Assembly (NCBI RefSeq): GCF_905480415.1
Contig: NZ_CAJQQI010000011.1
Coordinates: 1 to 49,504 of the forward strand
Reading direction: 5' to 3'
From: an uncultured Algibacter sp.
GTDB taxonomy: Bacteria; Bacteroidota; Bacteroidia; Flavobacteriales; Flavobacteriaceae
Length of the DNA: 49,504 nt
The notes beneath the pieces are model-generated. The model worked only from the letters and a program-made list of their open reading frames with translations, was not told the DNA's origin and searched no databases. This document shows, piece after piece, positions 1,420 to 41,397 of this stretch. A program made the translations under genes and the position numbers. Positions within the stretch are counted from its first letter, which is position 1. Each line of letters begins with the position of its first letter.

Positions 1420-4236
1420 CTATTTTAAAATTATTTTTTTCACGGAAGCATTTCTACCGTCGCTAATTTTCACAAAATACAAACCTGCTTGCAATGCGCT
1501 TAAATCCAATGTTTTAGTATTAGATGAGCCATCTAATTTAGCTGTAAATACTTTATGACCTAGTACATCAAAAACATTCACCAAATTACCGGTTGTGTTT
1601 TTTATGTTAATAATTCCAGTTGTTGGATTTGGATATATATTGAAAGGTACAACTTTAGAATTTTCTGTGCTTTTTGTACTTAATGTTATTCCTGGTTCTC
1701 CAATAAGTACATCAATATAAGTAAGATTATTAGTTGAATCCATTATCCCACCAGCACCACCACCAGGGCCGTCCTCAGCGGTTTTACCTTCTTCAGTAGT
1801 ATCTTCTTCAATAGGTACAACAAGTTGAGTAAACTCATCAAATCTAGCGGTACCTATTCCTTCAGTACCTTCATCAAAACTAAATGTTAATCTGTAGCTT
1901 CCTTCTCCTTCATTCTTATTGTCCACGTCCCATGTATATCCAAACATTATTTTACCTTTTACATTAACTTCAGCATTGAAATATCCACTTCCGTCTGAAG
2001 CTTCAGAAACAGCCTGATTTAATATTGGTTCATTTATAATGTTAACATCCTCCGGGTTTGCTTCTGTCCATTTTTTTTCAGCAGCTAACCAAGAAAGTCT
2101 TGAAGCAGGAATGCTTTCTCTTGTAAAATTTAATTTTTGAATTGTTAATCTGGCATTTGGAGTATAAACAGTAGCTTGAGTTCCTAAACCATAAACTACT
2201 TCATCGTCACGTGTTGTTTGTAATCCATGAACCTCATCTATACCCCAACTATCAACATGTCTCATACTAAATTGCGTTACAGAATCTATGTCTTGCACTA
2301 AAACCACTTCAGTTCTTACCTTCTTACCGATATCCCAAGGTACAGATTCAAGATTATCGCCCCAATCAACCCAATTAATATATATAGTGTCCCCTGCTGG
2401 AACCGCTGCATTATAAGCTTGCCAGGTATTGTCTGCATCTTTTTGTATGTAAGCTTTATATACTTCAGAGACTCCATCACCAGGTTCTGAATTATCTTCA
2501 CATTTATTTGGGTTATTGTCTGATGGTTTACAACTATATAGTGTTGCTTGTGGGTCAATAGGGTCTTCGCCCCAAACATACCACCATTCACCATTAATTG
2601 TATAATCTCCCATAGTACCACGTAATGCTTTAGAACCGCCATCGGCCCAAATTACTGGGAAGGATAAGTTATTTCCTGCGCCTTCAGGTGGTTCGGATAC
2701 CATTTCAAATGAAACTGTAATTGGTATTCCTATTTCACCAGTCAAATCATCCTCAGCATAAGGTGTCACAGTTAAGTTATAATTTCCTTTTGTAAAGTCC
2801 TTTCCAGAATAATCACCATTTGTGTGACCATAAAGCGTATAAGGCTCAATATTTTCGCTACTTGACGTAGAATGCTCTCCGCTTAGTTCGAATTTAACAC
2901 TACCAACATCACTTGTTGCTATTGCTTCAACACTAAGATTTGATATAGGAACTTCATTGATATCTATCCACATCCCATCTGTAAGTGAACCAAGAGACAC
3001 ATCATTAACTGCATCAATAAGTTCAAGACCTGTTACTGCTACCCAAGGAAGATAATCACTCATATCTTCTCCAATAAGCACATCTATATAGGTTAAATTA
3101 TTAGATGGATCCATCACTGGAACGCCGCCACTACCAGGCCCCCCTTCCTCGGTAATTTCAGTAGTTTTTGCTATTTCGTGGTCTTCTCCCTCTTCCTCTT
3201 CTGCTACTATTATTTGGGTAAATTCATCAAATTTAGCAGTTCCTATTGCTTCATCACCTTCATCAAAACTAAACGTCAATCTGTAGTAACCTTCTCCTTG
3301 ATTCTTACTACCCACGTCCCACGTATATCCAAACATTATTTTACCTTTTACATTAATTTCGGCATTAAAGAAGTCAGGACCAGTTCCAGCTTCAGAAATG
3401 GCCTGATTTAATATAGGCTCATTTATAATATCAACATTTTCACCTTCTGCTTCTGTCCATCCAGTTTCTGGTACCCAGATAAGTCTAGACGGATCAATAT
3501 TTGAACTTGTGTAATTCAATTTTTGCATAGTTAATCTGGCCTTTGGAGTAAAAATAGTAGCTTGAGTTCCTGCAGCGTATACAGGCTCATCATCAAGTGT
3601 AGTTTGTAAACCATGAACCTCATCTATACCCCAACTATCAACATGTCTCATACTAAATTGAGTTACAGAATCTATATCTTGCAATAAAACTATTTCTGTT
3701 CTTACCTTCGAATTAATTTTCCAGGCTAAAGATTCTAGGTTATCACCCCAGTCAACCCAATCAACATTTAGAGTTTCTCCAGCTGGTACGGGAGCATTGT
3801 GGGCTTGCCAAACATTCTTTAAATCTTTTTGTATATAAGCTTTATACACCTCCGAGGTTCCATCACCAGGTTCTTTGCCATCCATACATTTACCACTATT
3901 ATTATCTAGCGGTTCACAACTATAAAGTGGTGAATCTGGGTCAACAGGATCTTCACCCCACACATACCACCATACTCCTTCTAGTGAATAGGCTTCTAAT
4001 GTGCCGGGTAACACTTTAGATCCTCCATCTGCAAAAATAACTGGAAATGATAGGTTATTTCCCCCTATTTCACCGTCGTCGCCGCCGCCGCCATTATGGC
4101 CGCCGCCACCATTGCCGCCGCCACCGCCGCCGTTACCGCCACCACCGTTACCTTGCGCGTTCATAGTCTGACTAGAACAAATAAATATAAATGGTAAAAA
4201 AACCATTATCCGTAAATAAGTAATTAATTTTTTCAT
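1420..4236 (-). CDS. T9SS-secreted protein with two copies of a large unknown domain
   Basis: This 938-residue protein is predicted to be exported by Sec and then across the outer membrane by the type IX system. It has an N-terminal signal peptide (residues 1-28, ending MNAQ), a Gly/Asn-rich spacer (29-59), a first ~330-residue unit starting NNLSFPVIFADGG, and an intervening beta-rich segment. A second unit follows, starting NNLSFPVIWADGG near residue 520. The last ~76 residues (VPFNIYPNPTTG...KKIILK) are a type A sorting domain. Both units contain WWYVWGEDP, YSC and the identical stretch SMRHVDSWGIDEVHGLQTT. The inter-unit segment (TGLELIDA...YTLYGH) resembles small beta-sandwich domains of other Bacteroidota surface proteins. 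I do not recognise the repeated unit and assign no function. The promoter carries three FNR-like boxes. Confidence 0.9.
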   Translation of the reverse strand: MKKLITYLRIMVFLPFIFICSSQTMNAQGNGGGGNGGGGGGNGGGGHNGGGGDDGEIGGNNLSFPVIFADGGSKVLPGTLEAYSLEGVWWYVWGEDPVDPDSPLYSCEPLDNNSGKCMDGKEPGDGTSEVYKAYIQKDLKNVWQAHNAPVPAGETLNVDWVDWGDNLESLAWKINSKVRTEIVLLQDIDSVTQFSMRHVDSWGIDEVHGLQTTLDDEPVYAAGTQATIFTPKARLTMQKLNYTSSNIDPSRLIWVPETGWTEAEGENVDIINEPILNQAISEAGTGPDFFNAEINVKGKIMFGYTWDVGSKNQGEGYYRLTFSFDEGDEAIGTAKFDEFTQIIVAEEEEGEDHEIAKTTEITEEGGPGSGGVPVMDPSNNLTYIDVLIGEDMSDYLPWVAVTGLELIDAVNDVSLGSLTDGMWIDINEVPISNLSVEAIATSDVGSVKFELSGEHSTSSSENIEPYTLYGHTNGDYSGKDFTKGNYNLTVTPYAEDDLTGEIGIPITVSFEMVSEPPEGAGNNLSFPVIWADGGSKALRGTMGDYTINGEWWYVWGEDPIDPQATLYSCKPSDNNPNKCEDNSEPGDGVSEVYKAYIQKDADNTWQAYNAAVPAGDTIYINWVDWGDNLESVPWDIGKKVRTEVVLVQDIDSVTQFSMRHVDSWGIDEVHGLQTTRDDEVVYGLGTQATVYTPNARLTIQKLNFTRESIPASRLSWLAAEKKWTEANPEDVNIINEPILNQAVSEASDGSGYFNAEVNVKGKIMFGYTWDVDNKNEGEGSYRLTFSFDEGTEGIGTARFDEFTQLVVPIEEDTTEEGKTAEDGPGGGAGGIMDSTNNLTYIDVLIGEPGITLSTKSTENSKVVPFNIYPNPTTGIINIKNTTGNLVNVFDVLGHKVFTAKLDGSSNTKTLDLSALQAGLYFVKISDGRNASVKKIILK
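1700..2677 (-). repeat. Internal repeat unit 2 of the 938-residue T9SS protein
   Basis: This unit runs from NNLSFPVIWADGG to NNLTYIDVLIGEP, about 326 residues. It aligns with unit 1 over nearly its full length with conserved W, C and D positions. Unlike unit 1, it is followed almost directly by the T9SS sorting domain and lacks the beta-sandwich segment. Confidence 0.8.
3075..4059 (-). repeat. Internal repeat unit 1 of the 938-residue T9SS protein
   Basis: This unit runs from NNLSFPVIFADGG to NNLTYIDVLIGED, about 328 residues. DNA similarity to unit 2 is still visible, for example in the codons for the SMRHVDSWGIDEVHG stretch, so the duplication is fairly recent or kept similar by selection. 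Confidence 0.8.
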
Positions 4237-4322: not shown

Positions 4323-4419
4323 TAAACTTATAAATCTTAATAGGAGAAGGAAATGATACCTATCAGTTTTAAGATGTCAATGATACCTATCAGATTTAAG
4401 AGATAACTGATATAAATCA
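4323..4419 (-). promoter_or_regulatory. Promoter of the 938-residue gene with three 27-bp-phased FNR-like boxes
   Basis: On the minus strand the -7 box TAAGTTTA (4323-4330) matches TAnnTTTG at five of six informative positions. TGAT-N4-ATCA palindromes lie at 4354-4365 (TGATACCTATCA), 4381-4392 (identical) and 4408-4419 (TGATATAAATCA), exactly 27 bp apart. The first is centred 33 bp from the -7 centre, about -40 from the expected start. These sites, plus the hairpin at 4524-4554, account for the 355-bp gap 4237-4591. Confidence 0.65.
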
Positions 4420-4523
4420 TTTATATAAATAAAGTAAAACGTATTAAATAGCTCATAAACAACAAAATCTCAATTTAGAATACATGAGGAGTTTTAAACA
4501 GGAAGACGTTTATGTGCTTTTAA

Positions 4524-4554
4524 ACATATAAGGTGTTTTAAACACCTTATATGT
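4524..4554 (-). terminator. Stem-loop downstream of the 305-residue gene
   Basis: An inverted repeat (ACATATAAGGTGTTT / AAACACCTTATATGT) lies 38 bp after the stop codon at 4592. It separates this gene from the promoter of the next one. There is no strong U-run, which is common for Bacteroidota terminators. Confidence 0.6.
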
Positions 4555-4591
4555 AACCATCTCCTATTTTAATTAAGCGTATGTTTTTTTT

Positions 4592-5509
4592 TTAAAATCT
4601 ATAACTAACGCCTACCATCCAATAGAAGGTGTTTTCCAAATCCTCTTCATAGATGGCCGAATCTACAGTTAAAGTTGCTGGATTTTGCGGAACTACTAAA
4701 ACGGGTAAAAATGACACAGTAAAAGGCTTCGCCATATACCAAATAGGAATACTAAATTCTACTGCCATAAGGTCAAACTTTTCACTTTCCTCAAGCACTA
4801 CAGTGGTTGTAGTTGTTTCAATAGGATCTGCCGTGCTTCCAGTACCTTGACCTGACCCTTGACCTGACCCTGTGCTTCTTTCGCTGCCAAACCTATTGTA
4901 TACATAGTATTCTTTATAGAAATTCTGAGAACCTAAGAAAACCCCCATAGTAGGAGAGATTTGAAACTTTCTATCTGTAGAAACAAAATCGTGACTTATT
5001 TCAGAAGATAAAAAGATATCTGAAGTGCTGTTTTCATTAAAAAAATTGGTTAATGATAGGTTTAAATTAAAAACATCAAAATCATAACCTAAGGTACCTG
5101 TTAAATCTGCTTCGACTTCAGAAATTACATTATAACTATCTGTGTTAAAAAAGTATTTTGTGAATGATATATCGCCACTAAATTTTTTAGAATTAATTTC
5201 ATACCCAATGGTGCCTAAAAATAAATCAATCCTACTTTCATTTGACTTAGTAAGGAATGAAAAGGACCCAGTTGCATAAAGACCCGTTTTATTGAAATAA
5301 GTAATAGAAGGATATAAATATGGAGCAGAAATGGAATCTTTTCTACCTAAATAAACCGCATCATTCATGAAATTTACAGCTATAGAAACATAAGATGGAT
5401 CTTCCATTTGGCTCTGCTCAACTGAATCTGATGTGTTTTGCCCAAAAACTGTATAATTGCATATAAGAATCAACAGCAGGCTACTTAATTTATAGTTATA
5501 AGATTTCAT
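4592..5509 (-). CDS. Putative outer-membrane beta-barrel protein
   Basis: This 305-residue protein has a signal peptide (residues 1-24, ending TVFGQ). It then shows alternating amphipathic strands rich in Y, F and S (YATGSFSFLTK, KFSGDISFTKYFF, TLGYDFDVFNLNLSLTNFF) and ends in aromatic GVSYRF, as outer-membrane barrels do. A Gly/Ser/Gln/Thr-rich stretch (GSGQGSGQGTGS, then a run of five Thr) near residue 220 looks like a surface loop. I recognise no characterised family. It sits 57 bp after the DUF6799-like gene, but a strong stem-loop lies in that gap, so it may depend on read-through or its own promoter; I see no FNR-like box for it. It could assist export or anchoring of the neighbouring T9SS proteins, but that is only inferred from position. 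Confidence 0.75.
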   Translation of the reverse strand: MKSYNYKLSSLLLILICNYTVFGQNTSDSVEQSQMEDPSYVSIAVNFMNDAVYLGRKDSISAPYLYPSITYFNKTGLYATGSFSFLTKSNESRIDLFLGTIGYEINSKKFSGDISFTKYFFNTDSYNVISEVEADLTGTLGYDFDVFNLNLSLTNFFNENSTSDIFLSSEISHDFVSTDRKFQISPTMGVFLGSQNFYKEYYVYNRFGSERSTGSGQGSGQGTGSTADPIETTTTTVVLEESEKFDLMAVEFSIPIWYMAKPFTVSFLPVLVVPQNPATLTVDSAIYEEDLENTFYWMVGVSYRF

Positions 5510-5524
5510 GGTATATAGTTATTA

Positions 5525-5556
5525 AAAAAGGGTTTTTAGTAAAAAAAACCCTTTTT
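5525..5556 (-). terminator. Terminator after the DUF6799-like gene
   Basis: AAAAAGGGTTTTT and AAAAACCCTTTTT form a 13-bp stem with a 6-nt loop directly after the stop codon at 5567 and just upstream of the 305-residue gene. Confidence 0.7.
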
Positions 5557-5566
5557 AGTTATTAGT

Positions 5567-6223
5567 TTAATAAACAGGTTTTTTTGATTTCTGTTTCTTA
5601 ATTTGAGGTTTTTTCTGAATTTTATTTTTCTTTATAAATTTTTTATTAATCATTTTTCTATACTGAAACGTATTTTTATACATGTCACCAACCATATTTA
5701 AACATTCACCATCTTGCAAACGTAATTGTTTACGATCTCGTGTTTGATATGTTCCGTCTGGATTAACTGTTGTGCCATTATTCAGTTTTAATTGTTCACG
5801 AATCTGATTTTGTGATTGGTTTTTAATTTGATAAGCTTCACCATCCATAACCATAATTTGATATCTATTTTGGTTACGTTCTTGAATTTGACTTTGTGAC
5901 AACCCTTTATTCTCCTGCTGCACTTTGTAGCGATATTGGTATTCATTTCTATATTTTACGCCATCATTATCTAAGCATTCACCATCTTTTAAACGCAATC
6001 TATCACGATCTCTAGTCATATACGATCCATCCGGGTTTACCGTAGTGCCATCATTTAATACTATTTTGTCCTTGAGTCGAATTTGGTCCTGGTCTTTAAT
6101 TTGTAACACGTCTCCATCAACTAACATAACACGATCCTGATCTCTATCTTGAATTTTGTCCTGTGCGGATAGAGTTGTAGTTCCTATAATAGCCAACGCT
6201 CCTAATAAAATTAATGTTTTCAT
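5567..6223 (-). CDS. Exported protein with two DUF6799-like repeats and a basic tail
   Basis: This 218-residue protein has a signal peptide (residues 1-20, ending TTLSAQ). Two ~75-residue repeats follow. Each has a VMxxDGxxxQIKxQ segment, then LNDGTTVNPDGSYMTRDR or LNNGTTVNPDGTYQTRDR, then LRLKDGEC or LRLQDGEC. This matches my memory of DUF6799, a Bacteroidota-restricted domain of unknown function. The repeats are unusually rich in Q, D and R. The tail is strongly basic (KKFIKKNKIQKKPQIKKQK), an odd feature that could bind polyanions such as lipopolysaccharide or DNA. It probably stays in the periplasm or is a surface protein; no sorting domain is visible. Its promoter carries a single FNR-like box, like its T9SS neighbours. 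Confidence 0.8.
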   Translation of the reverse strand: MKTLILLGALAIIGTTTLSAQDKIQDRDQDRVMLVDGDVLQIKDQDQIRLKDKIVLNDGTTVNPDGSYMTRDRDRLRLKDGECLDNDGVKYRNEYQYRYKVQQENKGLSQSQIQERNQNRYQIMVMDGEAYQIKNQSQNQIREQLKLNNGTTVNPDGTYQTRDRKQLRLQDGECLNMVGDMYKNTFQYRKMINKKFIKKNKIQKKPQIKKQKSKKPVY

Positions 6224-6252
6224 GGTATTTATTATTTAAAATTAATATGTAA

Positions 6253-6295
6253 CTAAAGTAATTTCCATTTGTTGTATTACAAATGATATCCATCA
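6253..6295 (-). promoter_or_regulatory. FNR-like box and -7 element upstream of the DUF6799-like gene
   Basis: TGATATCCATCA (6284-6295) is centred exactly 33 bp from the centre of TACTTTAG (minus strand, 6253-6260). That -7 octamer is identical to the one used by the 554-residue gene. The gap 6224-6739 otherwise holds only the terminator at 6659-6693; I see no further gene in it. Confidence 0.65.
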
Positions 6296-6658
6296 GTTTC
6301 AACTGGGGTTTTCACACCCTTTTTGTTTTAAAAGATATTAGATTTACTTTTAGAATTAACTAAATATTAAATAGTGTTCATCTTTTGTGTTTTTAAAATT
6401 AGCACATTGATATTTTTAAATTTTATGAGGATAATATGATACTACAAAAGAAATAATAGCATTATTTTGAATGGGGTAAAAATTTAATTATTACTCTTAT
6501 TTATCTAAAGAAACTGGTTTTATTACTTCTCTATAAATTCTATATGTGTTTCGTCTCGTAAACTTCGATTAATACAAGTATATCATTTTTTTAGACTCGC
6601 TCAGTTAACTTTAATTATATATGTTTCGCTTAAATACTTCTTTTTACACTTTAATAAA

Positions 6659-6693
6659 ATAAATCCTGATAGATTTAATACTATCAGGATTTA
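6659..6693 (-). terminator. Stem-loop after the 554-residue T9SS gene
   Basis: AAATCCTGATAG and CTATCAGGATTT pair with an 8-nt loop about 50 bp beyond the stop at 6740. The stem is almost identical to 1359-1392. Confidence 0.65.
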
Positions 6694-6739
6694 TTCAGAT
6701 TTTATATATTAATTACATTTTTATGGTTTTTTTAATGCA

Positions 6740-8404
6740 TTACCTTAAAATCAATTTTTTTATAGACGTATTTCTCCCATCACTAATTTGTACAAAATAC
6801 ACACCTGACTGCCATCCGCTTAAATTAAATGTTTGAATATTATATGAATCATCTACTTTAGTTGAAAAGACTTTTTGACCCAAAGCATTATATATAATTA
6901 CTAAATTTCCCGTTGTACTTTCAATATTAAGGATGCCATTTGTTACTGGATTTGGATAAAGCTTCAAAACATTTTGTGAAAGCTTATCTTCAGTACCAAG
7001 AGTTGCAGATCCCGGACTAGCATAAATATCATATCCTTTATAATTACCAAAATAATTACTAGAATTTTTCCAATTTACTGGATTACTGTTATCTGATAAA
7101 GGGTCAATAAGTTCCATGGAATACCCTTGACCTGCTGCACCTTCTGGCCATGGTAAACCTATGGTATAGGTTACTGAATCTACCATCACTCCAGAATGAT
7201 GATCTGTATTTTGAATATAAATCAATTCGGCTTCGTCATTACTTAGGTTAGCTCCTATCCATTTATAGGCATTTACTCCAAAAAAAGAGTTAAATACAGT
7301 CGTATTTTTAGCTGTAATCCAATAATCGCCTGGCTGCAAGGTGTATTCTGGTAATTTTCCACTGGCTATACCGCCTTTTATTCTAAGACCCCCCAATTCG
7401 ATAGGTAGATCAGTAACATTATATAGCTCTATAAATTCGAGATCATCATTCTGTTCAACAGGAGGTTCATCATACATAATCTCTGTAATAACTAACCCTT
7501 CAGTAAGAGGATTGTAAATTAATTCAGCAATACTCGTTACCATAGTATTGCCTACTAAATCTTTAATATTGGCAATTTCAAGATCATAGTATTTACCAAT
7601 ACTTATTGGTGTAGATAAGTTTAATCTAACTAAATCTGAATCTGTAAGTGTAATTGAATCCACAAAAGGGGATGCATCTATAAAAGTATAGTTTGTCGGA
7701 TCCAATGCTGATTCATCTATTGGTTCACTAAAAAGGATATCAATTTCATTCACATTTATTACGGATGGTTCTAAGGCTAGAGGTGGAAATATATCTTCGT
7801 CTTCTGCATATATAGTAATATCATCAATGAGAATTTTTGCTGCTGTTCCTTTTTTCGCTCCAGATTTAGCCATGAATTGCAATACAACATCAGGATTAGA
7901 AAAGGCATTAGGGTGAAAGGCATGTGTAAATTCTTTATATACAGTATCAATATTTTGAAATCCACGCTCATCTGTACCCATTAAAATTTTTGGCCCAAAG
8001 GTAAGCCCACCATCAACAGACAACTTTAAATAAAGTTTAACATGTTTCATTTCGCCTGTTGCCACTGTTGCTACCCAAAATTTAGTTACAACATTTTCAA
8101 GTCCTGTAAGGTCAAGATCTACTTGGGCAAAAACCTCTATCTCTTCTTCTTCTTCACCCTCGGCAGCAACAGGCCATAGTCCCATTGCAAAAGCACCTGT
8201 TCTTAAATTGATATTCTCTTGGAATACCCTCCTATTATCAACATAATTTCCAAACCAATCATTTATAAAATATAGGTTTTCGCCTTGCACAAAAGTTTCA
8301 TTTTCAAAGCCTTCTAAATAAGGGAATTGGGCTACTTGCCCATAGGATTTTGAGCAAAAACAGCATATCTGTACTACGAGTATTAAAGGTATAAATTTTT
8401 TCAT
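6740..8404 (-). CDS. T9SS-secreted protein with Ig-like and lamin-tail domains
   Basis: This 554-residue protein has a signal peptide (residues 1-22, ending SYGQ). An N-terminal beta-rich domain follows, starting FPYLEGFENETF, of the kind common in Bacteroidota adhesion and hydrolase accessory modules. Near residues 205-300 there is a Big_5-like Ig domain (INVNEIDILFSEPIDESALDPTNY). Near residues 305-440 there is a lamin-tail domain (LVITEIMYDEPP, LEFIELYN, LPWPEGAAGQGYSMELID). The last ~75 residues are a type A T9SS sorting domain (LKLYPNPVTNG...KKLILR), very similar to that of the 938-residue protein. The lamin-tail fold is a binding or adhesion module; no catalytic domain is visible. It is transcribed alone from a promoter with one FNR-like box and followed by its own stem-loop. 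Confidence 0.88.
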   Translation of the reverse strand: MKKFIPLILVVQICCFCSKSYGQVAQFPYLEGFENETFVQGENLYFINDWFGNYVDNRRVFQENINLRTGAFAMGLWPVAAEGEEEEEIEVFAQVDLDLTGLENVVTKFWVATVATGEMKHVKLYLKLSVDGGLTFGPKILMGTDERGFQNIDTVYKEFTHAFHPNAFSNPDVVLQFMAKSGAKKGTAAKILIDDITIYAEDEDIFPPLALEPSVINVNEIDILFSEPIDESALDPTNYTFIDASPFVDSITLTDSDLVRLNLSTPISIGKYYDLEIANIKDLVGNTMVTSIAELIYNPLTEGLVITEIMYDEPPVEQNDDLEFIELYNVTDLPIELGGLRIKGGIASGKLPEYTLQPGDYWITAKNTTVFNSFFGVNAYKWIGANLSNDEAELIYIQNTDHHSGVMVDSVTYTIGLPWPEGAAGQGYSMELIDPLSDNSNPVNWKNSSNYFGNYKGYDIYASPGSATLGTEDKLSQNVLKLYPNPVTNGILNIESTTGNLVIIYNALGQKVFSTKVDDSYNIQTFNLSGWQSGVYFVQISDGRNTSIKKLILR

Positions 8405-8451
8405 AATTCTTTAATTTAAAAGTTAATTGTGTCAATTTTATTAATTAAAAG

Positions 8452-8494
8452 CTAAAGTATATTCCTACTTTAAAATTAGAAATGATATTCATCA
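8452..8494 (-). promoter_or_regulatory. FNR-like box and -7 element upstream of the 554-residue T9SS gene
   Basis: TGATATTCATCA (8483-8494) is centred exactly 33 bp upstream of the centre of the minus-strand TACTTTAG (8452-8459). The predicted leader is ~40 nt. The rest of the 8405-8784 gap is the ygiQ relic and the sua5 promoter region. Confidence 0.65.
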
Positions 8495-8548
8495 GTTATT
8501 AAAAAATAACACCTTAAGTATTGTATCTAAAGACATGTCAAAAAGTCC

Positions 8549-8710
8549 TTACTCGTTATAAAGTTCTCTAGGTCCCAACGATGGATAACCCACATAAATA
8601 TTACAGTTAAATAAAATCAAGTCTAGCACATCCCAACCACGTATTTTCAATTTTTTGTTTGTGATAGGTAAGTAAACCAATCTAAAAGTTTTAATTTCTA
8701 ACACGGCCAT
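8549..8710 (-). pseudogene. Decayed duplicate of the ygiQ 5' end
   Basis: By hand alignment 8566-8696 matches 911-1032 of the intact ygiQ at about 80% identity, with one 4-nt insertion near 8650. Read on the minus strand from ATG 8710 it gives 53 residues that still contain LPITNKKLKIRGWDVLDL, against LPTTNKEVKIRGWDELDV in the intact gene, and then run into a stop at 8549. No radical SAM motif remains. It is too short for the ORF track. It lies head-to-head with sua5, the place expected for an ancestral ygiQ start. Confidence 0.85.
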
Positions 8711-8784
8711 TCTTGCTAGGATTAAGCTTTCAAATAGTAATCACATCATTTTTTTAAGTAATTTTACAAACTGTTTCACAAACG

Positions 8785-9747
8785 ATGAGTATTATTTCAA
8801 AAGACATATCAAAAGCGGTTGCCCTTTTAAAGGCCGACAAACTTGTAGCGATTCCTACCGAAACCGTTTATGGCCTTGCCGGAAACATATATAGCGAGAA
8901 GGCTATTAAAAGCATTTTCGAAACTAAAAAACGTCCGTTTTTTAATCCACTTATCGTTCATATTGCATCGGTTAAGCAATTAGAAGATATTGTAAGTCAC
9001 GTTCCTGAAAAAGCAAAATTATTAGCCAAAGCCTTTTGGCCTGGGGCAATGACATTGGTGCTTAAAAAGCAATCTATAATCCCAGACTTAATTACTGCAG
9101 GAAAAGACACGGTCGCAGTACGCGTTCCAAACCATCCTATAACTTTAAAACTTTTAAGACAATTACCATTTCCTTTGGCTGCTCCAAGTGCAAATCCATT
9201 TGGAAGCATTAGTCCCACAAAACCAGAACATGTAGCCCGATATTTTAAAAACGATATTGATCAAGTGTTAGATGGTGGAGTTTGTTCTAGCGGAATAGAA
9301 TCAACTATTATTGGGTTTGAAAATGATGAACTTATCATTTATCGTTTAGGTGCTTTAGCTATAGAAGATATTGAAGCAGTAGTTGGCAAAGTAACGATCA
9401 AAAACAGTAAAGAAATCAGTCCCGATGCACCTGGGATGTTAGACAGACATTATGCACCATCAACACAAACGTTTCTAACCGATACTATTTTAGAAGAAAT
9501 TAAAAAACACATAGGTAAACGCATTGGAATTCTTGTTTTTAAATCAGATTTAAAACAACCGACTATTACAACTCAAATCATCTTATCAAAAGATGGTGAT
9601 ATGGTAGAAGCCGCATCAAAACTTTATGATGCCATGCACGATTTAGATCATCAAAATCTCGATGTAATTATTGCTGAACGTTTTCCGGATTTTGGCTTAG
9701 GAAAATCTATCAATGATAGGTTGCAACGCGCTACCTTTAGCAGTTAA
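8785..9747 (+). CDS. sua5: L-threonylcarbamoyladenylate synthase (Sua5 type)
   Basis: This enzyme makes threonylcarbamoyl-AMP from threonine, bicarbonate and ATP, the first step of t6A formation at position 37 of ANN-decoding tRNAs. The 320-residue protein is the long Sua5 form. The YrdC-type domain (about residues 8-200) has IPTETVYGLAGN, KKRPFFNPL, VRVPNHP and PLAAPSANPFGSISPT. The smaller C-terminal Sua5 domain (from about residue 215) follows a linker containing SPDAPGMLDRHYAP. The ATG at 8785 gives the expected N-terminus. A -7-like TAATTTTA at 8759-8766 lies just upstream, giving a very short leader. Confidence 0.95.
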   Translation: MSIISKDISKAVALLKADKLVAIPTETVYGLAGNIYSEKAIKSIFETKKRPFFNPLIVHIASVKQLEDIVSHVPEKAKLLAKAFWPGAMTLVLKKQSIIPDLITAGKDTVAVRVPNHPITLKLLRQLPFPLAAPSANPFGSISPTKPEHVARYFKNDIDQVLDGGVCSSGIESTIIGFENDELIIYRLGALAIEDIEAVVGKVTIKNSKEISPDAPGMLDRHYAPSTQTFLTDTILEEIKKHIGKRIGILVFKSDLKQPTITTQIILSKDGDMVEAASKLYDAMHDLDHQNLDVIIAERFPDFGLGKSINDRLQRATFSS

Positions 9748-10722: not shown

Positions 10723-10905
10723 TATCCTCAACTTGATTGGGAATCTGTTTATCAGTTCTCTCAATCTTGTCGAAATTAAAGTATTATTTAAAAAGTTCCT
10801 GAAACGAGTTCAGGACTAAAAGTTTAGCATCTAAATGGTTAAGGCGAATTTTAAAAAATGACCACTTAATCATTGCTAATTCAACAGAACGTAAACTATT
10901 ACAAA

Positions 10906-11760
10906 ATGGCAGTAGAAGTAAAAGAATTACTTGAAGCAGGTGTACACTTCGGACACCTTACACGTAAGTGGGATCCAAACATGGCTCCTTACGTATATAT
11001 GGAGCGTAATGGCATCCATATTATAAACCTTTACAAAACAGCGGCTAAAATTGATGAAGCCGGAGCAGCATTAGCAAAGATTGCAGCTTCTGGTCGTAAA
11101 ATTTTATTCGTTGCAACAAAAAAGCAAGCAAAAGATATTGTTGCTGAAAAAGCTGGAAACATTAATATGCCTTACATCACTGAAAGATGGCCAGGTGGAA
11201 TGTTAACTAACTTTGTTACTATTAGAAAAGCTGTTAAAAAAATGGCTACTATTGATAGAATGAAGAAAGACGGTACGTTCATGACATTATCTAAAAAAGA
11301 ACGTTTACAAGTTGATCGTTTAAGAGCGAAGTTAGAAAAAAACTTAGGTTCTATTAACGATATGACTCGTTTACCAGGTGCTTTATTTGTTGTAGATATT
11401 AAGCGTGAGCATATCGCGATTAAAGAAGCTCAAAAATTAAACATTCCAATTTTTGCAATGGTTGATACCAATTCAGATCCACGTCAAGTAGATTATGTTA
11501 TCCCTGCAAATGATGACGCTTCTAAATCGATAGATAAAATTTTAACGCATGTAACATCTGCAATATCTGACGGATTAGCAGAACGTAAAGCTGAAAAAGA
11601 TGCGGCTGCCGCACCTAAAGAAGAAGCTCCAAAAGCTAAAGTTGAAGTAAAAACTGAAGCTAAAGAAGAGGCTCCAAAAGCTAAAGTTGTAGTTGAAAAA
11701 GCTGCTCCTAAAGCTAAAGCTGCACCAGCTAAAAAAGCTGCTGCTGAAGAAGAAGAATAA
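10906..11760 (+). CDS. rpsB: 30S ribosomal protein S2
   Basis: S2 is a small-subunit protein needed for S1 binding. The true start is the ATG at 10906 (MAVEVKELLEAGVHFGH), 11 codons inside the track ORF, whose extra N-terminus is not part of the family. The S2 core covers about residues 1-230 (GRKILFVATKKQAKDI, ERWPGGMLTNFVTIRK, LPGALFVVDIKREHIAIKEA). A ~50-residue Ala/Lys/Glu-rich tail (two EEAPKAKV repeats) follows, as in many Bacteroidota S2 proteins. The 183-bp leader after rpsI contains a 7-bp hairpin (TCCTGAA/TTCAGGA, 10797-10815) that might belong to an autoregulatory leader; this is not shown. Confidence 0.96.
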   Translation: MAVEVKELLEAGVHFGHLTRKWDPNMAPYVYMERNGIHIINLYKTAAKIDEAGAALAKIAASGRKILFVATKKQAKDIVAEKAGNINMPYITERWPGGMLTNFVTIRKAVKKMATIDRMKKDGTFMTLSKKERLQVDRLRAKLEKNLGSINDMTRLPGALFVVDIKREHIAIKEAQKLNIPIFAMVDTNSDPRQVDYVIPANDDASKSIDKILTHVTSAISDGLAERKAEKDAAAAPKEEAPKAKVEVKTEAKEEAPKAKVVVEKAAPKAKAAPAKKAAAEEEE

Positions 11761-33386: not shown

Positions 33387-33450
33387 AAGATATTTTCATC
33401 TTAAATATGATTTTTATCATACTATTTTCTGTGAATACACCATAATTTTG
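33387..33450 (+). promoter_or_regulatory. Control region of the nos operon
   Basis: It contains the -7 box TAATTTTG (33443-33450), a perfect FNR-like palindrome ATGATTTTTATCAT (33407-33420) centred 33 bp upstream of the -7 centre, and a second inverted repeat AAGAT-N6-ATCTT (33387-33402). The latter is a possible site for the divergent Rrf2 regulator. No TTTG -33 element is present, which fits activator dependence. On the minus strand a TTAATTTG also lies 33 bp from the palindrome centre, toward the Rrf2 gene. Confidence 0.65.
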
Positions 33451-33469: not shown

Positions 33470-33967
33470 ATGACAAAAGCACTAAACATTGTAACGGGAT
33501 TATTTGTATTACTGCTAATTAGTTGCGGTGGTAAAGAAGAAAAAAAGAAGGAAGGGTTCTCTTATGAAAAAAAGGAAGCCACAGAAAAAGTTGTAAAAAA
33601 AGCTGAAACTATTCCAGCTTCAAAAAGAGTAGACTTATCCAATAAAGGTATTGGCCCTATTACATCTATGGCTTTAAACGCAGAGATAGATCAGACCATG
33701 GTAACTCACGGTGCTGATGTATTTAAAAAAATGTGTACAGCTTGCCACAGAACTAATAAAAAATTCATTGGCCCTCCACCAGCAGGGATCTTTGAACGTA
33801 GATCTCCAGAATGGGTTATGAATATGATTTTAAACCCCGACGAGATGGTTAAAAAAGACCCATTAGCAAAAGAATTACTTATGGAGTTTAATGGATCACC
33901 AATGGCAAATCAAAACTTATCAGAAGAAGATGCCAGAGCTGTATTAGAATATTTTAGAACATTATAA
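33470..33967 (+). CDS. Lipoprotein c-type cytochrome of the nos locus
   Basis: This 165-residue protein has a lipoprotein signal peptide with lipobox LLISCGG (Cys near residue 20), a Lys/Glu-rich linker, and one cytochrome c domain. The domain has haem motif CTACH and a likely axial Met in GSPMANQ. It probably donates electrons to NosZ from the membrane side. It is the first gene of the nos operon, 38 bp before the fasciclin gene. Confidence 0.9.
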   Translation: MTKALNIVTGLFVLLLISCGGKEEKKKEGFSYEKKEATEKVVKKAETIPASKRVDLSNKGIGPITSMALNAEIDQTMVTHGADVFKKMCTACHRTNKKFIGPPPAGIFERRSPEWVMNMILNPDEMVKKDPLAKELLMEFNGSPMANQNLSEEDARAVLEYFRTL

Positions 33968-34005
33968 TAACGGGAACAACTAAAACCAACTAAAAACCAA
34001 GATAG

Positions 34006-34581
34006 ATGAAAACACTTAAACAAATTTTTATATGCGTATTCTGCTTATTAGCATTTGCTGCGTGCAAAAACGAAACCCAAGATGCTTCAACGAACTCATT
34101 GTTTACAGAGGCTGAAACCACGGCAAATAAAAAAACGGGGCAGGCATTTATTACAGACGATGAAAGTACACCAACAGTATTAAGCATAGCCATTGGCTCT
34201 CCAGACCATACTACTTTGGTTGCAGCTGTGCAAGCAGCATCTCTAGAAAACGCTTTAGTAAATGCTGGACCTTTAATGGTATTTGCACCTACTAATGATG
34301 CCTTTGCAGCTTTACCAGAAGGTACCGTCGAAAATTTATTGAAACCAGAAAACAAAGATGCTCTAGCTAATATTTTAAAGTATCATGTTACTCCTGGAAA
34401 CTATTCTAAAGACTTTTTAAAGAAATTTAAAAAACTAGGTCAGGCCAACAACCAATATGTAAAAATTGATGTTGTAGATGGTGAACCTATGATTGGAGGC
34501 GCAAAAATACTTGGAAGTGTAAAAGCTGGAAATGGAATAGTTCATGTCATCGATAAAGTTCTATTACCACCAACTGAATAA
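34006..34581 (+). CDS. Fasciclin (FAS1) domain lipoprotein
   Basis: This 191-residue protein has a lipobox AFAACKN (Cys at residue 22) and one FAS1 domain with the H1 motif GPLMVFAPTNDAFAAL, YHVTPGNYS and the H2-like GNGIVHVIDKVLLP. FAS1 lipoproteins are commonly found in Bacteroidota nos clusters; their role there is unknown. It lies between the cytochrome and nosZ, 28 bp before nosZ. Confidence 0.9.
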   Translation: MKTLKQIFICVFCLLAFAACKNETQDASTNSLFTEAETTANKKTGQAFITDDESTPTVLSIAIGSPDHTTLVAAVQAASLENALVNAGPLMVFAPTNDAFAALPEGTVENLLKPENKDALANILKYHVTPGNYSKDFLKKFKKLGQANNQYVKIDVVDGEPMIGGAKILGSVKAGNGIVHVIDKVLLPPTE

Positions 34582-34609
34582 TATAAACACTAATTAAAAC
34601 TATACTAAA

Positions 34610-36580
34610 ATGAAAAAAAGACTAACATCAACTATTGCAATTGCAATGATTTTTGCTGCATTTACAAGTTGTAATAACTCAGGCAAAACTAACGGTCAAT
34701 CTGGTGCCTTATCTAGTAACGTAGCAGAAAAAGTATATGTAGCACCGGGTGAATACGACGAATTCTATGCCTTTATCTCTGGTGGTTATAGCGGTAACTT
34801 AACAGTTTACGGTTTACCATCTGGAAGAATGTTTAAGGAAATCCCTGTGTTTTCTCAATTTCCAACCTCTGGGTATGGTTATTCAGAAGAAACAAAACCA
34901 ATGTTGAATACTTCTCATGGGTTTATACCTTGGGGAGATTCTCACCATCCAGACATTTCGCAAACTGCGGGAGAAATAGATGGTCGTTTCATTTTTATAA
35001 ATGAAAACAACACACCTAGAATTGCAAAAATTGATCTAAAAACATTTGAAACCACTGAAATTATCGAAGTGCCAAATAGTGCAGGTAACCACAGTTCTTC
35101 ATTTGTTACTGAAAATACAGAGTATGTAGTTGCAGGTACACGTTTTTCTGTACCAATTCCACAACGCGATATGCCAATAAAAGAATATAAGGGTAATTTT
35201 CAAGGGGCCTTATCATTTATTAGTGTAGCACCAGAAACGGGTAATATGGATATAAAATTCCAAGTACTAATGCCTGGTTTCAACTATGATTTATCACACC
35301 CTGGACGTGGAAAATCTCACGGATGGTTCTTCTTCACGACTTATAACACGGAAGAAGCAAGTACCTTATTGGAGGTTAACGCATCTCAAAACGATAAAGA
35401 TTTTATTGCTGCTGTAAACTGGAAAAAAATTGAAGAATACGTAAATAATGGCGGTGGAACTATGATGCCAGCTGATTATGCACATAATGTATATGATGAG
35501 CATACACACACAGCAACCTCTACTATGAAAAAAGAAGTACGTGTAGTTAATCCTTCAGAAGTTCCTGGAGCTGTATATTTCTTACCAACACCAAAATCAC
35601 CTCACGGCTGTGATGTTGATCCTTCTGGAGAGTACATTGTAGGTAATGGTAAATTATCTGCCAACTTAACGGTTCATTCATTTACAAAAATGCTAGCTGC
35701 TATTGAAGGTGAAAAGTTTGATGGTGAAGCTTATGGAATTCCAATTTTAAAATTTGAAGATGTTTTAGCAGGTTCAGTAGAGCAACCAGGATTAGGACCT
35801 TTACATACCGAGTTTGATGGAAAAGGAAACGCTTACACAACATTCTTTATTTCTTCTGAAGTTGTAAAATGGAAATTAGGTACTTGGGAAGTTATAGATA
35901 GAAAACCTACCTATTACTCTGTTGGTCACTTAACCATTCCTGGAGGAAACTCTGGAAAACCTCAAGGTAAATACATGTTTGCCATGAATAAAATCACAAA
36001 AGATAGATACTTACCAACTGGTCCAGAAATGGAGCACTCTGCACAATTATATGATATTTCCGGTGATAAAATGGAATTACTTTTAGATTTCCCAACACAC
36101 GGAGAGCCTCACTATGCTGCAGCCATGCGAGCAGATCTTATAAAGGAACGTTCTCAGAAAATCTACGACTTAGAAGACAACAAGCACCCTTATGCTGCTA
36201 AATCTGATGACGACACTAAAGTAGTGAGAAAAGGTAATGAAGTTCATATTTATATGACGACTATTAGAAGTCACTTCTCACCAGATAATATTGAAGGTAT
36301 TAAATTAGGAGATAAAGTTTATTTCCACGTCACCAATTTAGAACAAGATTTTGATGTACCTCACGGCTTTGCTGTACTTGGACAAAATACATCTGAATTA
36401 TTAATTATGCCAGGACAAACTAAAACCTCAGTTTGGGAACCAACAAAAGTTGGTGTATGGCCATTCTATTGTACTGATTTCTGTTCTGCATTACACCAAG
36501 AAATGCAAGGTTACATAAGAGTATCGGCTGCAAATGCTAACACACCATTAATTTGGTCAATGGGAGAAGACATAGAGTAA
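34610..36580 (+). CDS. nosZ: Nitrous-oxide reductase, clade II
   Basis: NosZ reduces N2O to N2 at the CuZ site using electrons received at CuA. The 656-residue precursor has a Sec-type signal (no twin arginine) with a lipobox-like TSCNN, which is characteristic of clade II enzymes. The seven-bladed propeller carries His-rich CuZ segments such as DSHHPD, AHNVYDEHTH, SPHGCDVDP and GEPHYA. The C-terminal cupredoxin has the CuA motif CTDFCSALHQEM. It is followed by a strong terminator, so the genes behind it may be transcribed at a lower level. Confidence 0.97.
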   Translation: MKKRLTSTIAIAMIFAAFTSCNNSGKTNGQSGALSSNVAEKVYVAPGEYDEFYAFISGGYSGNLTVYGLPSGRMFKEIPVFSQFPTSGYGYSEETKPMLNTSHGFIPWGDSHHPDISQTAGEIDGRFIFINENNTPRIAKIDLKTFETTEIIEVPNSAGNHSSSFVTENTEYVVAGTRFSVPIPQRDMPIKEYKGNFQGALSFISVAPETGNMDIKFQVLMPGFNYDLSHPGRGKSHGWFFFTTYNTEEASTLLEVNASQNDKDFIAAVNWKKIEEYVNNGGGTMMPADYAHNVYDEHTHTATSTMKKEVRVVNPSEVPGAVYFLPTPKSPHGCDVDPSGEYIVGNGKLSANLTVHSFTKMLAAIEGEKFDGEAYGIPILKFEDVLAGSVEQPGLGPLHTEFDGKGNAYTTFFISSEVVKWKLGTWEVIDRKPTYYSVGHLTIPGGNSGKPQGKYMFAMNKITKDRYLPTGPEMEHSAQLYDISGDKMELLLDFPTHGEPHYAAAMRADLIKERSQKIYDLEDNKHPYAAKSDDDTKVVRKGNEVHIYMTTIRSHFSPDNIEGIKLGDKVYFHVTNLEQDFDVPHGFAVLGQNTSELLIMPGQTKTSVWEPTKVGVWPFYCTDFCSALHQEMQGYIRVSAANANTPLIWSMGEDIE

Positions 36581-36631
36581 ACAGTTTTTAAAGCTTAGAG
36601 GGATTTTGTTTTAGTGTTTATTTCTCTAACT

Positions 36632-36666
36632 AAGGCGAGAGTGGACTTTTCGCTCTCGCCTTTATC
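36632..36666 (+). terminator. Terminator after nosZ
   Basis: AAGGCGAGAG and CTCTCGCCTT form a 10-bp stem followed by TTA. It lies inside the track ORF 36614-37297, which shows that the upstream start of that ORF is wrong. Confidence 0.75.
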
Positions 36667-36706
36667 ATTTAATGCTAAAAATATAAAATACCATAGACTT
36701 AGAATT

Positions 36707-37297
36707 ATGAAAAAGCAAAATATAATTATGATTGTAGCCGCATTGCTACCTCTAGGATTGTTTCTTTTTCCGCTTTGGAGAATTACTCTAGAAGCACCTC
36801 AGTATCCTACACCATTAGCAATGAATATCCATGTAAATGATTTTTCTGATGTTCATCCACACGACATTAAAAACATTAATTTAATGAATCATTATGTGGG
36901 TATGCAGTATATTCCCGAGGCTATTCCCGAATTCAAAATTTTTCCAACAGGAATACTAATAACAAGTTTTATAGGCTTGCTTATTGGTTGGAAAGGCAAC
37001 TATAAATGGTTTTTAGGATGGTTTATACTAATGCTTGTTTTAAGTGCTGCAGGCATGTACGATTTCTATTTATGGGAACATGACTATGGACATAATTTAG
37101 ACCCCAAAGCCATTATGAAGTTTACCAACAAAGATGGCACTGTTATGGGCTTTCAACCTCCGCTTTTTGGAACTAAAGACATCTTAAACTTTAAAGCACA
37201 TTCTTATCCACAATTTGGTGCATTATTTTTAGGATTAGGTATTGCTTCAGGATTTTTAGCTTATTTTGTAGGTAAGAAAAATAAATCCACGGCATAG
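36707..37297 (+). CDS. NosB-like polytopic membrane protein
   Basis: I start this at ATG 36707 (MKKQNIIMIVAALLPL, 196 residues). It has four predicted TM helices, near residues 5-25, 83-97, 100-120 and 170-190. A periplasmic stretch with NIHVNDFSDVHPHDIKNINLMNHYVGM is rich in His and Met, and LWEHDYGHN follows. Clade II nos clusters encode a membrane protein just after nosZ (NosB in Wolinella); this one fits in position and topology. The His/Met pattern could bind copper. Confidence 0.75.
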   Translation: MKKQNIIMIVAALLPLGLFLFPLWRITLEAPQYPTPLAMNIHVNDFSDVHPHDIKNINLMNHYVGMQYIPEAIPEFKIFPTGILITSFIGLLIGWKGNYKWFLGWFILMLVLSAAGMYDFYLWEHDYGHNLDPKAIMKFTNKDGTVMGFQPPLFGTKDILNFKAHSYPQFGALFLGLGIASGFLAYFVGKKNKSTA

Positions 37298-37328
37298 ATG
37301 TCAAAAAAAACAATAAAACACTAAAACA

Positions 37329-37766
37329 ATGCAAACACCAAAACACTATTCAACTCTTGCATTACTCTTGTTATTTTTAAATTGTAATGTGTCTCCAAAG
37401 GCCATAGATTATGGTGGCGATGGCTGTCACTTTTGTAAAATGACCATAGTCGATAAGGTTCATGCTGCAGAAGTAGTTACCAAAAAAGGGAAAGTCTATA
37501 AATTCGATGCCACCGAATGCCTGATTAACTTCATGGAAGATTTTGACACTTCTGAAATTGAATTGTACTTGTCTAACAATTACACAGAACCTGAAGCTTT
37601 AATTGATGCTACAAAAGCTACGTTTTTAATAAGCGACAATATCCCAAGTCCAATGGGAGCGTTTCTTAGTGCATTTAAAAACAAGACAGATGCTGAGACA
37701 TTTCAAGCTGAAAAAGGAGGTGATTTGTATACATGGGAAACTTTACTAGTAAAATTTAAAGACTAG
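37329..37766 (+). CDS. nosL: NosL copper chaperone lipoprotein
   Basis: NosL delivers copper to apo-NosZ. The 145-residue lipoprotein has a lipobox LFLNCNV (Cys near residue 19) and the family motif GCHFCKMTIVD. It also has the NosL core KVYKFDATECLINFM and IPSPMGAFLSAFKN. It is placed between the NosB-like gene and nosD, as usual. Confidence 0.93.
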   Translation: MQTPKHYSTLALLLLFLNCNVSPKAIDYGGDGCHFCKMTIVDKVHAAEVVTKKGKVYKFDATECLINFMEDFDTSEIELYLSNNYTEPEALIDATKATFLISDNIPSPMGAFLSAFKNKTDAETFQAEKGGDLYTWETLLVKFKD

Positions 37767-37771
37767 TAATC

Positions 37772-39007
37772 ATGAGAAATTTATTCAGTTTTCTAACTGC
37801 CATTTTAATGGCTAGCTCCACTATTGCCCAAACTATTGAGGTTTGCAAAACCTGCCCTATTTCGTCTATAAAAGATGCGATAATACAAGCTAAAGATTTT
37901 GATACCATTATAGTTAAAAAAGGGACTTATAAAGAACATGATATTCTTGTCAATAAACCATTAACTATTATTGGTGAGAAATACCCAGTAATTGACGGTG
38001 AACTAAAAGGTGAAATTATCACCATTATTTCCGATAATGTTACGGTTGATGGCTTATTCATAATTAACGTAGGCACAAGTTATACCGAAGACTATGCAGC
38101 CATTAGAGTTCGAAAAAGCAAAAACTTTCTCATTCAGAATTTAGTTTTAGAGAAATTGTTCTTCGGAATTTATATTGAAAAATCAAGAAACGGAAAAGTG
38201 TTTCATAATAAAATAATTGGTGATGCTGTGGAAGAATACAATTCAGGCAATGGCATACAGTTGTGGTATAGTAAAAATGTGCAAATAGAACATAATTTTG
38301 TACAGCATGTTCGAGATGGTATTTATTTAGAATTTTCTGATGATTGTTTAATTAAAAATAATGTAAGTACACTAAATGTGCGTTACGGATTACACTTTAT
38401 GTTTTCTAACGACGATACTTATCAAGATAACACGTTCGAAAATAATGGAGCTGGTGTAGCTGTAATGTTTTCAAAACGTATTAAAATGTACAACAATATT
38501 TTTAAAGAAAATTGGGGGACGGCCTCTTACGGTATGTTACTTAAAGAAATAAATGACGGCGAAATTGAAGGCAACACTTTTGAAGACAATACCATTGGCA
38601 TTAATATAGAAGGCTCAAACCGTATCAATTATAAGCAAAATACTTTTATTAATAATGGTTGGGCAGTTAAGGTAAAAGGTGCATGTTACACTAATAAATT
38701 TACAGAAAACAACTTTTTGTACAACTCTTTTGATATTGCTTACAATAGCAATGTGAACGACAATGAATTTGATAAAAATTATTGGAGTAATTACACGGGT
38801 TACGACCTAGACAAAAACGGCATTGGGGATGTGCCTTACCGACCAGTAAAACTATTTTCATACATTGTAAATCGTACACCAGAAACTATCATTTTATTGC
38901 GCAGTATGTTTATAGATATTATTGATTTTTCAGAAAAAGTATCACCTGTATTTACACCAGATGATTTATTGGACAACAACCCACAAATAAAAAAATTAAC
39001 ATGGTAA
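37772..39007 (+). CDS. nosD: NosD, periplasmic maturation protein
   Basis: This 411-residue protein has a signal peptide (residues 1-19, ending TIAQ) and a right-handed parallel beta-helix made of repeated NxFxxN-type turns, as in CASH/NosD domains. With NosF and NosY it supplies the sulfide of the CuZ centre. It has a CKTCPI pair near the N-terminus of the mature protein. It overlaps nosF by 7 bp, so translation is coupled. Confidence 0.94.
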   Translation: MRNLFSFLTAILMASSTIAQTIEVCKTCPISSIKDAIIQAKDFDTIIVKKGTYKEHDILVNKPLTIIGEKYPVIDGELKGEIITIISDNVTVDGLFIINVGTSYTEDYAAIRVRKSKNFLIQNLVLEKLFFGIYIEKSRNGKVFHNKIIGDAVEEYNSGNGIQLWYSKNVQIEHNFVQHVRDGIYLEFSDDCLIKNNVSTLNVRYGLHFMFSNDDTYQDNTFENNGAGVAVMFSKRIKMYNNIFKENWGTASYGMLLKEINDGEIEGNTFEDNTIGINIEGSNRINYKQNTFINNGWAVKVKGACYTNKFTENNFLYNSFDIAYNSNVNDNEFDKNYWSNYTGYDLDKNGIGDVPYRPVKLFSYIVNRTPETIILLRSMFIDIIDFSEKVSPVFTPDDLLDNNPQIKKLTW

Positions 39008-39708
39008 TAATTGAAAATGTACATAAAAAATTTGGAAAGAATCAAGTTTTAAGTGGTGTTGATTTAACCATTTCTGATGGCGGAATTTTTGCAGTTCTAG
39101 GACCAAATGGCTCCGGTAAAACCACACTGATAAAATCAATTTTAGGCATGGTAATTCCTAACAAAGGCAATATTACTGTATTAGGAGAAAACATTAAGCA
39201 GCATTCAGATTATAGACATAAAATTGATTATTTACCCCAAATTGCCAACTTCCCTAGTAATCTTCGGGTTAAGGAATTAATTAAAATGATTAAAGATTTA
39301 CGCAAACCTACTCATGAAGATGAACGCTTAATACAACTTTTTAAGCTTGAACCCTTTTTAGATAAAAAACTAGGTAATCTTTCCGGAGGAACTAAACAAA
39401 AAGTAAACCTAGTCCTAACCTTTATGTTTGATAGTCCATTAATTATTTTAGATGAACCTACAACAGGATTAGACCCCATTTCTTTGATAAGGTTAAAGGG
39501 TTTAATTCAAGCTGAAAAAGCCAAAGGCAAAACCATACTCATTACCTCTCATATTATGAGTTTTGTTGAAGAAGTCTCAGATGAAATTGTATTTATTCTA
39601 GAAGGCAAAATCTACTTTAAAGGCTCAATTTCAGAATTAAAAACCAAGACCAATCAACAAGATTTCGAACATGCAATAGCATCAATACTCACAGAAAACC
39701 ATGCTTAA
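39001..39708 (+). CDS. nosF: NosF, ABC transporter ATPase
   Basis: This 235-residue ATPase has Walker A GPNGSGKTT, Q-loop LPQIANFP, signature LSGGTKQKVNL, Walker B LIILDEPTTGLDP and the switch His in TSHIM. It powers the NosDFY complex for NosZ maturation. It overlaps nosD by 7 bp and nosY by 8 bp. Confidence 0.95.
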   Translation: MVIIENVHKKFGKNQVLSGVDLTISDGGIFAVLGPNGSGKTTLIKSILGMVIPNKGNITVLGENIKQHSDYRHKIDYLPQIANFPSNLRVKELIKMIKDLRKPTHEDERLIQLFKLEPFLDKKLGNLSGGTKQKVNLVLTFMFDSPLIILDEPTTGLDPISLIRLKGLIQAEKAKGKTILITSHIMSFVEEVSDEIVFILEGKIYFKGSISELKTKTNQQDFEHAIASILTENHA

Positions 39709-40483
39709 AATATTAAAATATAGTTTTTACGATTTAATTCGTAGCCGTTGGAGTTACGTGTATTTTTCATTCTATTTATTGCTTGGTAGTGTACTGTTAT
39801 TTTTAAACAATGACCTTTCCAAAGCAGTTATCACTTTAATGAATGTTATTATTGTTTTAGTCCCATTAATAGGAACCATTTTTGGCGTCATGTACTACTA
39901 TAATTCTAAAGAATTTACGGAGTTATTACTGGCACAACCTTTAAAACGATCATCCATATTTTTAGGACAATATCTTGGTGTCGCCATTTCTCTGTCCATG
40001 AGTTTAATTTTAGGGTTAGGCATTCCGTTTATTTTTTATGGTCTATTTAAATCATCTGCTATTTGGGATTTCTCTTTATTACTTATTACAGGAACATTCC
40101 TAACATTAATATTTACAGCACTCGCTTTTAACATAGCCTTATCTAATGAAAATAAAATTAAAGGTTTTGGGTATGCTATCTTGCTTTGGCTATTTCTAGC
40201 TATTATCTACGATGGCATTTTTTTAATGTCTCTTATATTATTTGAAGACTATCCGTTAGATAAACTTTCATTAGTTGGCACCATGCTTAATCCCATAGAT
40301 TTATCACGAACACTTATTCTTTTAAAACTCGATATTTCTGCATTACTTGGTTATACCGGAGCAATTTTTAAACAATTCTTCGGCACTAGTTTTGGTTTAA
40401 TTGTGTCCTTTATAATGCTAACAGCTTGGGTGATATTACCTGTTTTAAGAATTGTATTCAAATCAAAAAAGAAAGACTTTTAA
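39701..40483 (+). CDS. nosY: NosY, ABC transporter permease
   Basis: This 260-residue ABC-2 type permease has about six TM helices, starting YSFYDLIRSRWSYVYFSFYLLLGSVLLF. It is the membrane part of NosDFY. It is the last nos gene; a bidirectional terminator follows. Confidence 0.92.
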   Translation: MLKILKYSFYDLIRSRWSYVYFSFYLLLGSVLLFLNNDLSKAVITLMNVIIVLVPLIGTIFGVMYYYNSKEFTELLLAQPLKRSSIFLGQYLGVAISLSMSLILGLGIPFIFYGLFKSSAIWDFSLLLITGTFLTLIFTALAFNIALSNENKIKGFGYAILLWLFLAIIYDGIFLMSLILFEDYPLDKLSLVGTMLNPIDLSRTLILLKLDISALLGYTGAIFKQFFGTSFGLIVSFIMLTAWVILPVLRIVFKSKKKDF

Positions 40484-41345: not shown

Positions 41346-41363
41346 GACTATTTTATTTATTTC

Positions 41364-41377: not shown

Positions 41378-41397
41378 TATTTATATTCAAATTTTTT

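Follow-up and report, generated by a model that had tools for sequence, protein, structure and literature searches.

In the 49,504-nucleotide window from an uncultured Algibacter sp. (contig NZ_CAJQQI010000011.1, positions 1 to 49,504; the window is this whole stretch), three minus-strand genes are preceded by promoters of a single design. The first gene encodes a 938-aa exported protein with a type IX secretion system (T9SS) sorting domain (Por_Secre_tail; 1420-4236), the second a 218-aa protein with two DUF6799 repeats (5567-6223), and the third a 554-aa exported protein that combines a lamin-tail domain (LTD) with a T9SS sorting domain (6740-8404), all according to domain matches. Each leader contains a minus-strand palindrome of the form TGAT-N4-ATCA that is a predicted activator site: TGATAGGTATCA (4354-4365, matched genome-wide as C11:4324-4365), TGATGGATATCA (6284-6295) and TGATGAATATCA (8483-8494). 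Exactly 23 bases separate these palindromes from predicted -7 boxes with the sequences TAAGTTTA (4323-4330), TACTTTAG (6253-6260) and again TACTTTAG (8452-8459), which corresponds to 33 bp from centre to centre. An earlier sequence-only reading had reported these coordinates and this spacing and had named T9SS cargo and DUF6799 proteins as the targets. Both points are reproduced, with two of the three genes encoding T9SS cargo and one a DUF6799 protein. The boxes of the second and third leaders deviate from TAnnTTTG at one fixed position and are found by a relaxed pattern only. Their spacers are identical at 13 of 23 bases (P 0.011, shuffling), so these two leaders are perhaps not entirely independent of each other.

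The position of the palindromes is that of a Crp/Fnr-type site. Activators of this family have a class II position at -41.5. The sigma-A -7 box TAnnTTTG occupies positions -12 to -5 in mapped promoters of Flavobacterium psychrophilum (PMC9723704), and a palindrome centred 33 bp ahead of the midpoint of such a box would therefore fall at -41.5. In front of the DUF6799 gene, a -33-like element (TTTG) directly follows the palindrome and lies 19 bp before the box. The sites are symmetric with TGA-type half sites, which together with a predicted centre near -41.5 is the site geometry of the Crp/Fnr superfamily.

The spacing is highly unlikely to arise by chance, as the sequence-only reading had argued. 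TGAT-N4-ATCA occurs 7 times in the window against 1.3 expected. For the full design, TGAT-N4-ATCA-N23-TAnnTT, the window has 4 copies, whereas 300 dinucleotide-shuffled versions had a mean of 0.04 and never exceeded 1. The genome-wide search that this reading had suggested gives 37 matches to the same pattern in the Algibacter genome versus 1 for a reversed control pattern, and 23 versus 0 when the box is restricted to TAnnTTT. One promoter is counted twice among the 37, because its sequence stands at two contig ends (G000 C95:12485-12527 and C157:63-105) that probably represent an assembly overlap. Over 201 Flavobacteriaceae genomes, almost all from different genera, the form with a TAnnTTT[AG] box is found 1112 times versus 47 for the control. 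A gap of 23 holds 18 boxes in the stretches searched of the Algibacter genome and 35 in those of six relatives, versus 0.19 and 0.27 expected per gap, and the neighbouring gaps hold 0 to 2. The three window genes thus belong to a genome-wide set of sites with single-base spacing. A rival explanation is that these are chance palindromes noticed post hoc; the sequence is AT-rich, and the palindrome alone is only about 2-fold over the control in this genome (140 versus 69). With the gap of 23 included, the counts above make this explanation very improbable; it is refuted for the set as a whole, and any single site could still be non-functional. Elsewhere in the genome, two tandem paralogous genes for 166-aa exported proteins (L060 on C58, about 10866-11521) each have their own site at gap 23. 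The sequence-only reading had likened the sites to the FNR/CRP motif TTGAT-N4-ATCAA, but they do not fit this FNR consensus: of 81 sites, 76 have T as the 3' outer base and 72 have A or C as the 5' outer base.

Ten genes in the genome encode proteins with a cyclic nucleotide monophosphate (cNMP)-binding-like domain, and three of these proteins (on C164, C63 and C2) have a Crp helix-turn-helix with the recognition segment E-x-x-I-R. The C2 protein (CGIC...C), whose gene lies, by eye, in a nitrate/nitrite assimilation cluster, was discounted as a probable nitrogen regulator. The best candidate for the activator of the three window genes, as judged from sequence, is the C164 protein (7908-8963), which we call REC-Crp. 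It consists of a receiver (PF00072, 1.1e-27), a cNMP-binding-like domain (PF00027, 8.3e-18) and a Crp helix-turn-helix (PF13545, 2.3e-12), an architecture that places it in the Crp/Fnr superfamily. A PAS histidine kinase gene lies directly before it and universal stress protein (usp) genes lie after it. Receiver residues D52 and K104 and helix residues E317 and R321 are invariant in nine REC-Crp proteins, and the receiver Asp and Lys together with the adjacent kinase gene mark the protein as a two-component response regulator. FNR has the recognition helix E-x-x-S-R, whereas the serine position is I in eight and T in one of the nine REC-Crp proteins. REC-Crp also contains no counterpart of the N-terminal cysteine cluster of FNR, that place being occupied by the receiver domain. 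An identification of REC-Crp as FNR was rejected on the cysteines, the recognition helix and the outer site bases. The earlier proposal of a Crp/Fnr-family activator is therefore upheld by class II-type sites in a genome-wide set, but its FNR form is not.

Site number follows the presence of this protein. REC-Crp occurs in 102 of the 201 Flavobacteriaceae genomes, and these carry a mean of 8.05 sites with none at zero, versus a mean of 2.94 in the 99 genomes without it, 24 of which have none (p = 1.6e-17). Control counts are alike in the two groups (0.21 with REC-Crp versus 0.26 without). Within the genus, four genomes with REC-Crp have 23, 27, 17 and 9 sites, and six without it have 5, 0, 5, 3, 3 and 2. 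The sites also cluster around the gene itself, with 65 of 162 sites in 13 genomes lying no more than 40 kb from it versus 3.7 expected. A kinase open reading frame (ORF) adjoins REC-Crp in 41 of 41 loci and a usp gene in 36 of 41. The order kinase, REC-Crp, usp is conserved, and a site is often found between REC-Crp and usp.

A rival candidate is the stand-alone, FNR-like 226-aa protein at C63:5008-5586, which has an N-terminal CEQC and whose gene is divergent from a FixI/CcoI-type metal-ATPase gene (identified by eye). It could activate all of these promoters at low oxygen. It has the same E-x-x-I-R helix and is the kind of regulator that FNR-type sites at -41.5 imply. Its relatives occur in most genomes, including those that lack REC-Crp and yet have sites, and sites in the Algibacter genome before the nos operon and genes for 2-oxoacid:ferredoxin oxidoreductase, ferredoxin and formate-tetrahydrofolate (THF) ligase would fit anaerobic control. 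The dependence of site number on REC-Crp and the clustering around its gene speak against this assignment, and so does the finding that the sites fall into two classes. A T follows ATCAT in 41 of 65 sites near REC-Crp versus 9 of 54 in genomes without it (p = 3e-7), and the central N4 is AAAA or TTTT in 4 of 65 versus 23 of 54 (p = 2e-6). At both places the window sites are unlike the class from REC-Crp-negative genomes. When scored with the sites of their own genome left out, they reach +3.5, +5.0 and +5.0 bits for the REC-Crp class in order of position, and none of the 54 comparison sites scores as high as any of them (leave-one-out). Sole control of the window genes by the C63 protein is consequently unlikely. 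We consider it similarly unlikely that REC-Crp and the FNR-like protein bind overlapping sites and that the window genes integrate a two-component signal with oxygen. Such dual control would suit the TGAT-N4-ATCA core and the gap of 23, which both classes share, and the similarity of the recognition helices. Against it, the class difference is significant at both places, with the window sites at one of its extremes.

The assignment of the window genes to REC-Crp also has several observations to contend with. The two other Crp proteins of the genome share its recognition pattern, and some sites persist in genomes without REC-Crp. The only control for kinship in the comparison of site number with REC-Crp presence is the sampling of almost only one genome per genus. 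The site class rests on few positions with a leave-one-out area under the curve (AUC) of 0.78, and with so modest a classifier the class score is support rather than proof. DUF6799 was not found above the cut-off in the relatives searched, and the site is absent before the orthologues of the LTD/T9SS gene in the two genomes that have them.

These two genomes (G063 and G215) are the only ones of 400 with near orthologues of the LTD/T9SS gene, and both encode REC-Crp. Conservation of this promoter was accordingly rejected, and the comparison of orthologous promoters that the sequence-only reading had counted on lends no backing to the three window promoters individually. The three window genes are accessory, and because the orthologous promoters lack the site, they look recently recruited. 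Other sites in the Algibacter genome lie before usp genes, a J-domain protein, a thioredoxin operon, Hsp20, and CBS, ABC1, patatin, MlaE and BON proteins. Another stands before a small protein with a hibernation-promoting-factor-like ORF behind it. Some of these neighbours were identified by eye. This content reads as a stress-survival programme.

The kinase encoded beside REC-Crp (L057:6031-7911 on C164) has a PAS-LOV-PAS arrangement before its histidine kinase part. Its LOV part contains NCRFLQ at residue 178, followed by NYKKDGTMFWN and FIGIQNDVT; it thus has the flavin-binding Asn residues and the closing G-x-Q that mark a LOV photoreceptor by sequence, and its closest solved relatives are bacterial LOV photoreceptors (E down to 6e-34). 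Just 11 of 41 related kinases carry the LOV motif, chiefly the ones nearest the Algibacter genome, so light would be at most one input of the kinase family. We infer that the signal may be blue light in this lineage, redox or energy state, or both. The site divergent from the kinase gene (L057:5963, L258:10826) also faces a TACTTTT-type box, at a gap of 24 instead of 23, possibly a case of autoregulation with altered spacing.

The window holds two further palindromes and a fourth copy of the full design that the sequence-only reading had not included. Upstream of the first gene, a second minus-strand palindrome (4381-4392) is identical in sequence to the one at 4354 and may be an auxiliary site (+4.3 bits for the REC-Crp class), and a third, TGATTTATATCA (4408-4419, minus strand), scores +0.4 bits and is of undecided class. 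The three follow each other in exact 27-bp steps, so that the added two lie 27 and 54 bp beyond the first on its upstream side, and tandem binding is possible. A 305-aa ORF (4592-5509, minus strand) lies 57 bp behind the DUF6799 gene and is a possible operon partner of it; it has no match in Pfam or NCBIfam. Between the two genes, an inverted repeat (AAAAAGGG...CCCTTTTT, 5524-5562) resembles a terminator or attenuator.

On the plus strand, the full design spans 33408-33450 with the palindrome TGATTTTTATCATAC (33408-33419) and the -7 box TAATTTTG (33443-33450). It precedes the nos (N2O reductase) operon (33470-40483, plus strand), which encodes a cytochrome c, a fasciclin-domain protein, a Sec-dependent NosZ, NosD, an ABC ATPase and further proteins. 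This site scores -0.9 bits and falls into the FNR-like class. The formate-THF ligase, 2-oxoacid:ferredoxin oxidoreductase and ferredoxin sites group with it, which makes it probable that an anaerobic gene set is served from the same position by a second regulator of FNR-like type. Low oxygen, which had been offered as the condition for the window genes, is plausible for this second class; for the three window genes it is unsupported, and the cognate kinase has a LOV domain. Adjoining the nos operon (40614-41832, minus strand) are genes for an Rrf2-family regulator and a ScdA_N/hemerythrin (RIC-like) protein, likely forming an NO/N2O block with it. A palindrome at 41522 was rejected as a chance match, since it lies inside the Rrf2 gene and has no box at gap 23.

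The three window genes thus probably belong to a genome-wide regulon of a dimeric Crp/Fnr-family activator, most likely REC-Crp with its adjacent PAS-LOV-PAS kinase. In the proposed mechanism, the dimer would bind [AC]TGAT-N4-ATCAT at -41.5, abutting the -33 region, and would act by class II activation, bringing RNA polymerase that carries the primary sigma factor to a -7 box of the TAnnTTTG type. The kinase, encoded immediately upstream, would phosphorylate REC-Crp, whose gene lies in a usp gene island carrying the same sites. The sites, their spacing and enrichment, the co-occurrence and co-localisation with REC-Crp, the site class and the domain anatomy are direct observations; binding and phosphorylation-dependent activation by REC-Crp are what we infer from sequence. 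A broader reading, which we favour only slightly over its negation, is that this is a widespread global stress regulon of the Flavobacteriaceae. One protein would be both response regulator and Crp activator, acting from -41.5 on Bacteroidota-type promoters across a fixed 23-bp gap; its targets would form an island mostly around its own gene, blue light would enter through the LOV kinase in some lineages, and accessory secreted proteins such as these three would be readily recruited. No description of such a regulon was found in the literature searched, most subscription journals being outside its coverage, and its novelty is provisional.

Little of transcription control in the Bacteroidota has been mapped, and for their unusual -33/-7 promoters few geometries of activator sites are known. 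With a site pattern that is nearly free of background, targets can be listed at once in hundreds of genomes, and a candidate regulator can be named for about half of the Flavobacteriaceae genera. T9SS cargo, DUF6799 proteins, universal stress proteins and ribosome hibernation would all come under one signal, and light would be linked to flavobacterial stress physiology if the LOV kinase drives the regulon.

The predicted system resembles several known ones in part. With the FNR/FixK/Anr regulons of proteobacteria it shares the Crp/Fnr fold, the helix-turn-helix, the TGAT-N4-ATCA core, a centre at -41.5, and usp and anaerobic genes among the targets; in Pseudomonas, Anr is linked to usp. It differs from them in that REC-Crp is a response regulator with a receiver and without the FNR cysteine cluster, the outer bases are A/C and T rather than T and A, the helix serine position is mostly I, and the promoters are of the Bacteroidota -33/-7 type. 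As in FixLJ-FixK, a PAS-type histidine kinase would lead to a Crp/Fnr activator of microaerobic or stress genes. REC-Crp, however, unites the receiver and the Crp domain in a single chain, like a fusion of the FixJ and FixK steps, and the match of the kinase to the NCBIfam FixL model falls far short of the cut-off. LOV histidine kinases feed general stress responses in Caulobacter (LovK) and Brucella (LOV-HK), and here too a LOV domain with NCRFLQ lies ahead of a histidine kinase with a stress-type output. That output would be a Crp-type transcription factor instead of an anti-sigma/sigma cascade, and LOV is confined to 11 of the 41 kinases of the family. DosRST, the dormancy regulon of Mycobacterium, likewise places many universal stress proteins and survival genes under two-component control, but DosR belongs to the NarL/LuxR type of regulator and binds a different site, and the likeness is one of regulon content with no homology claimed.

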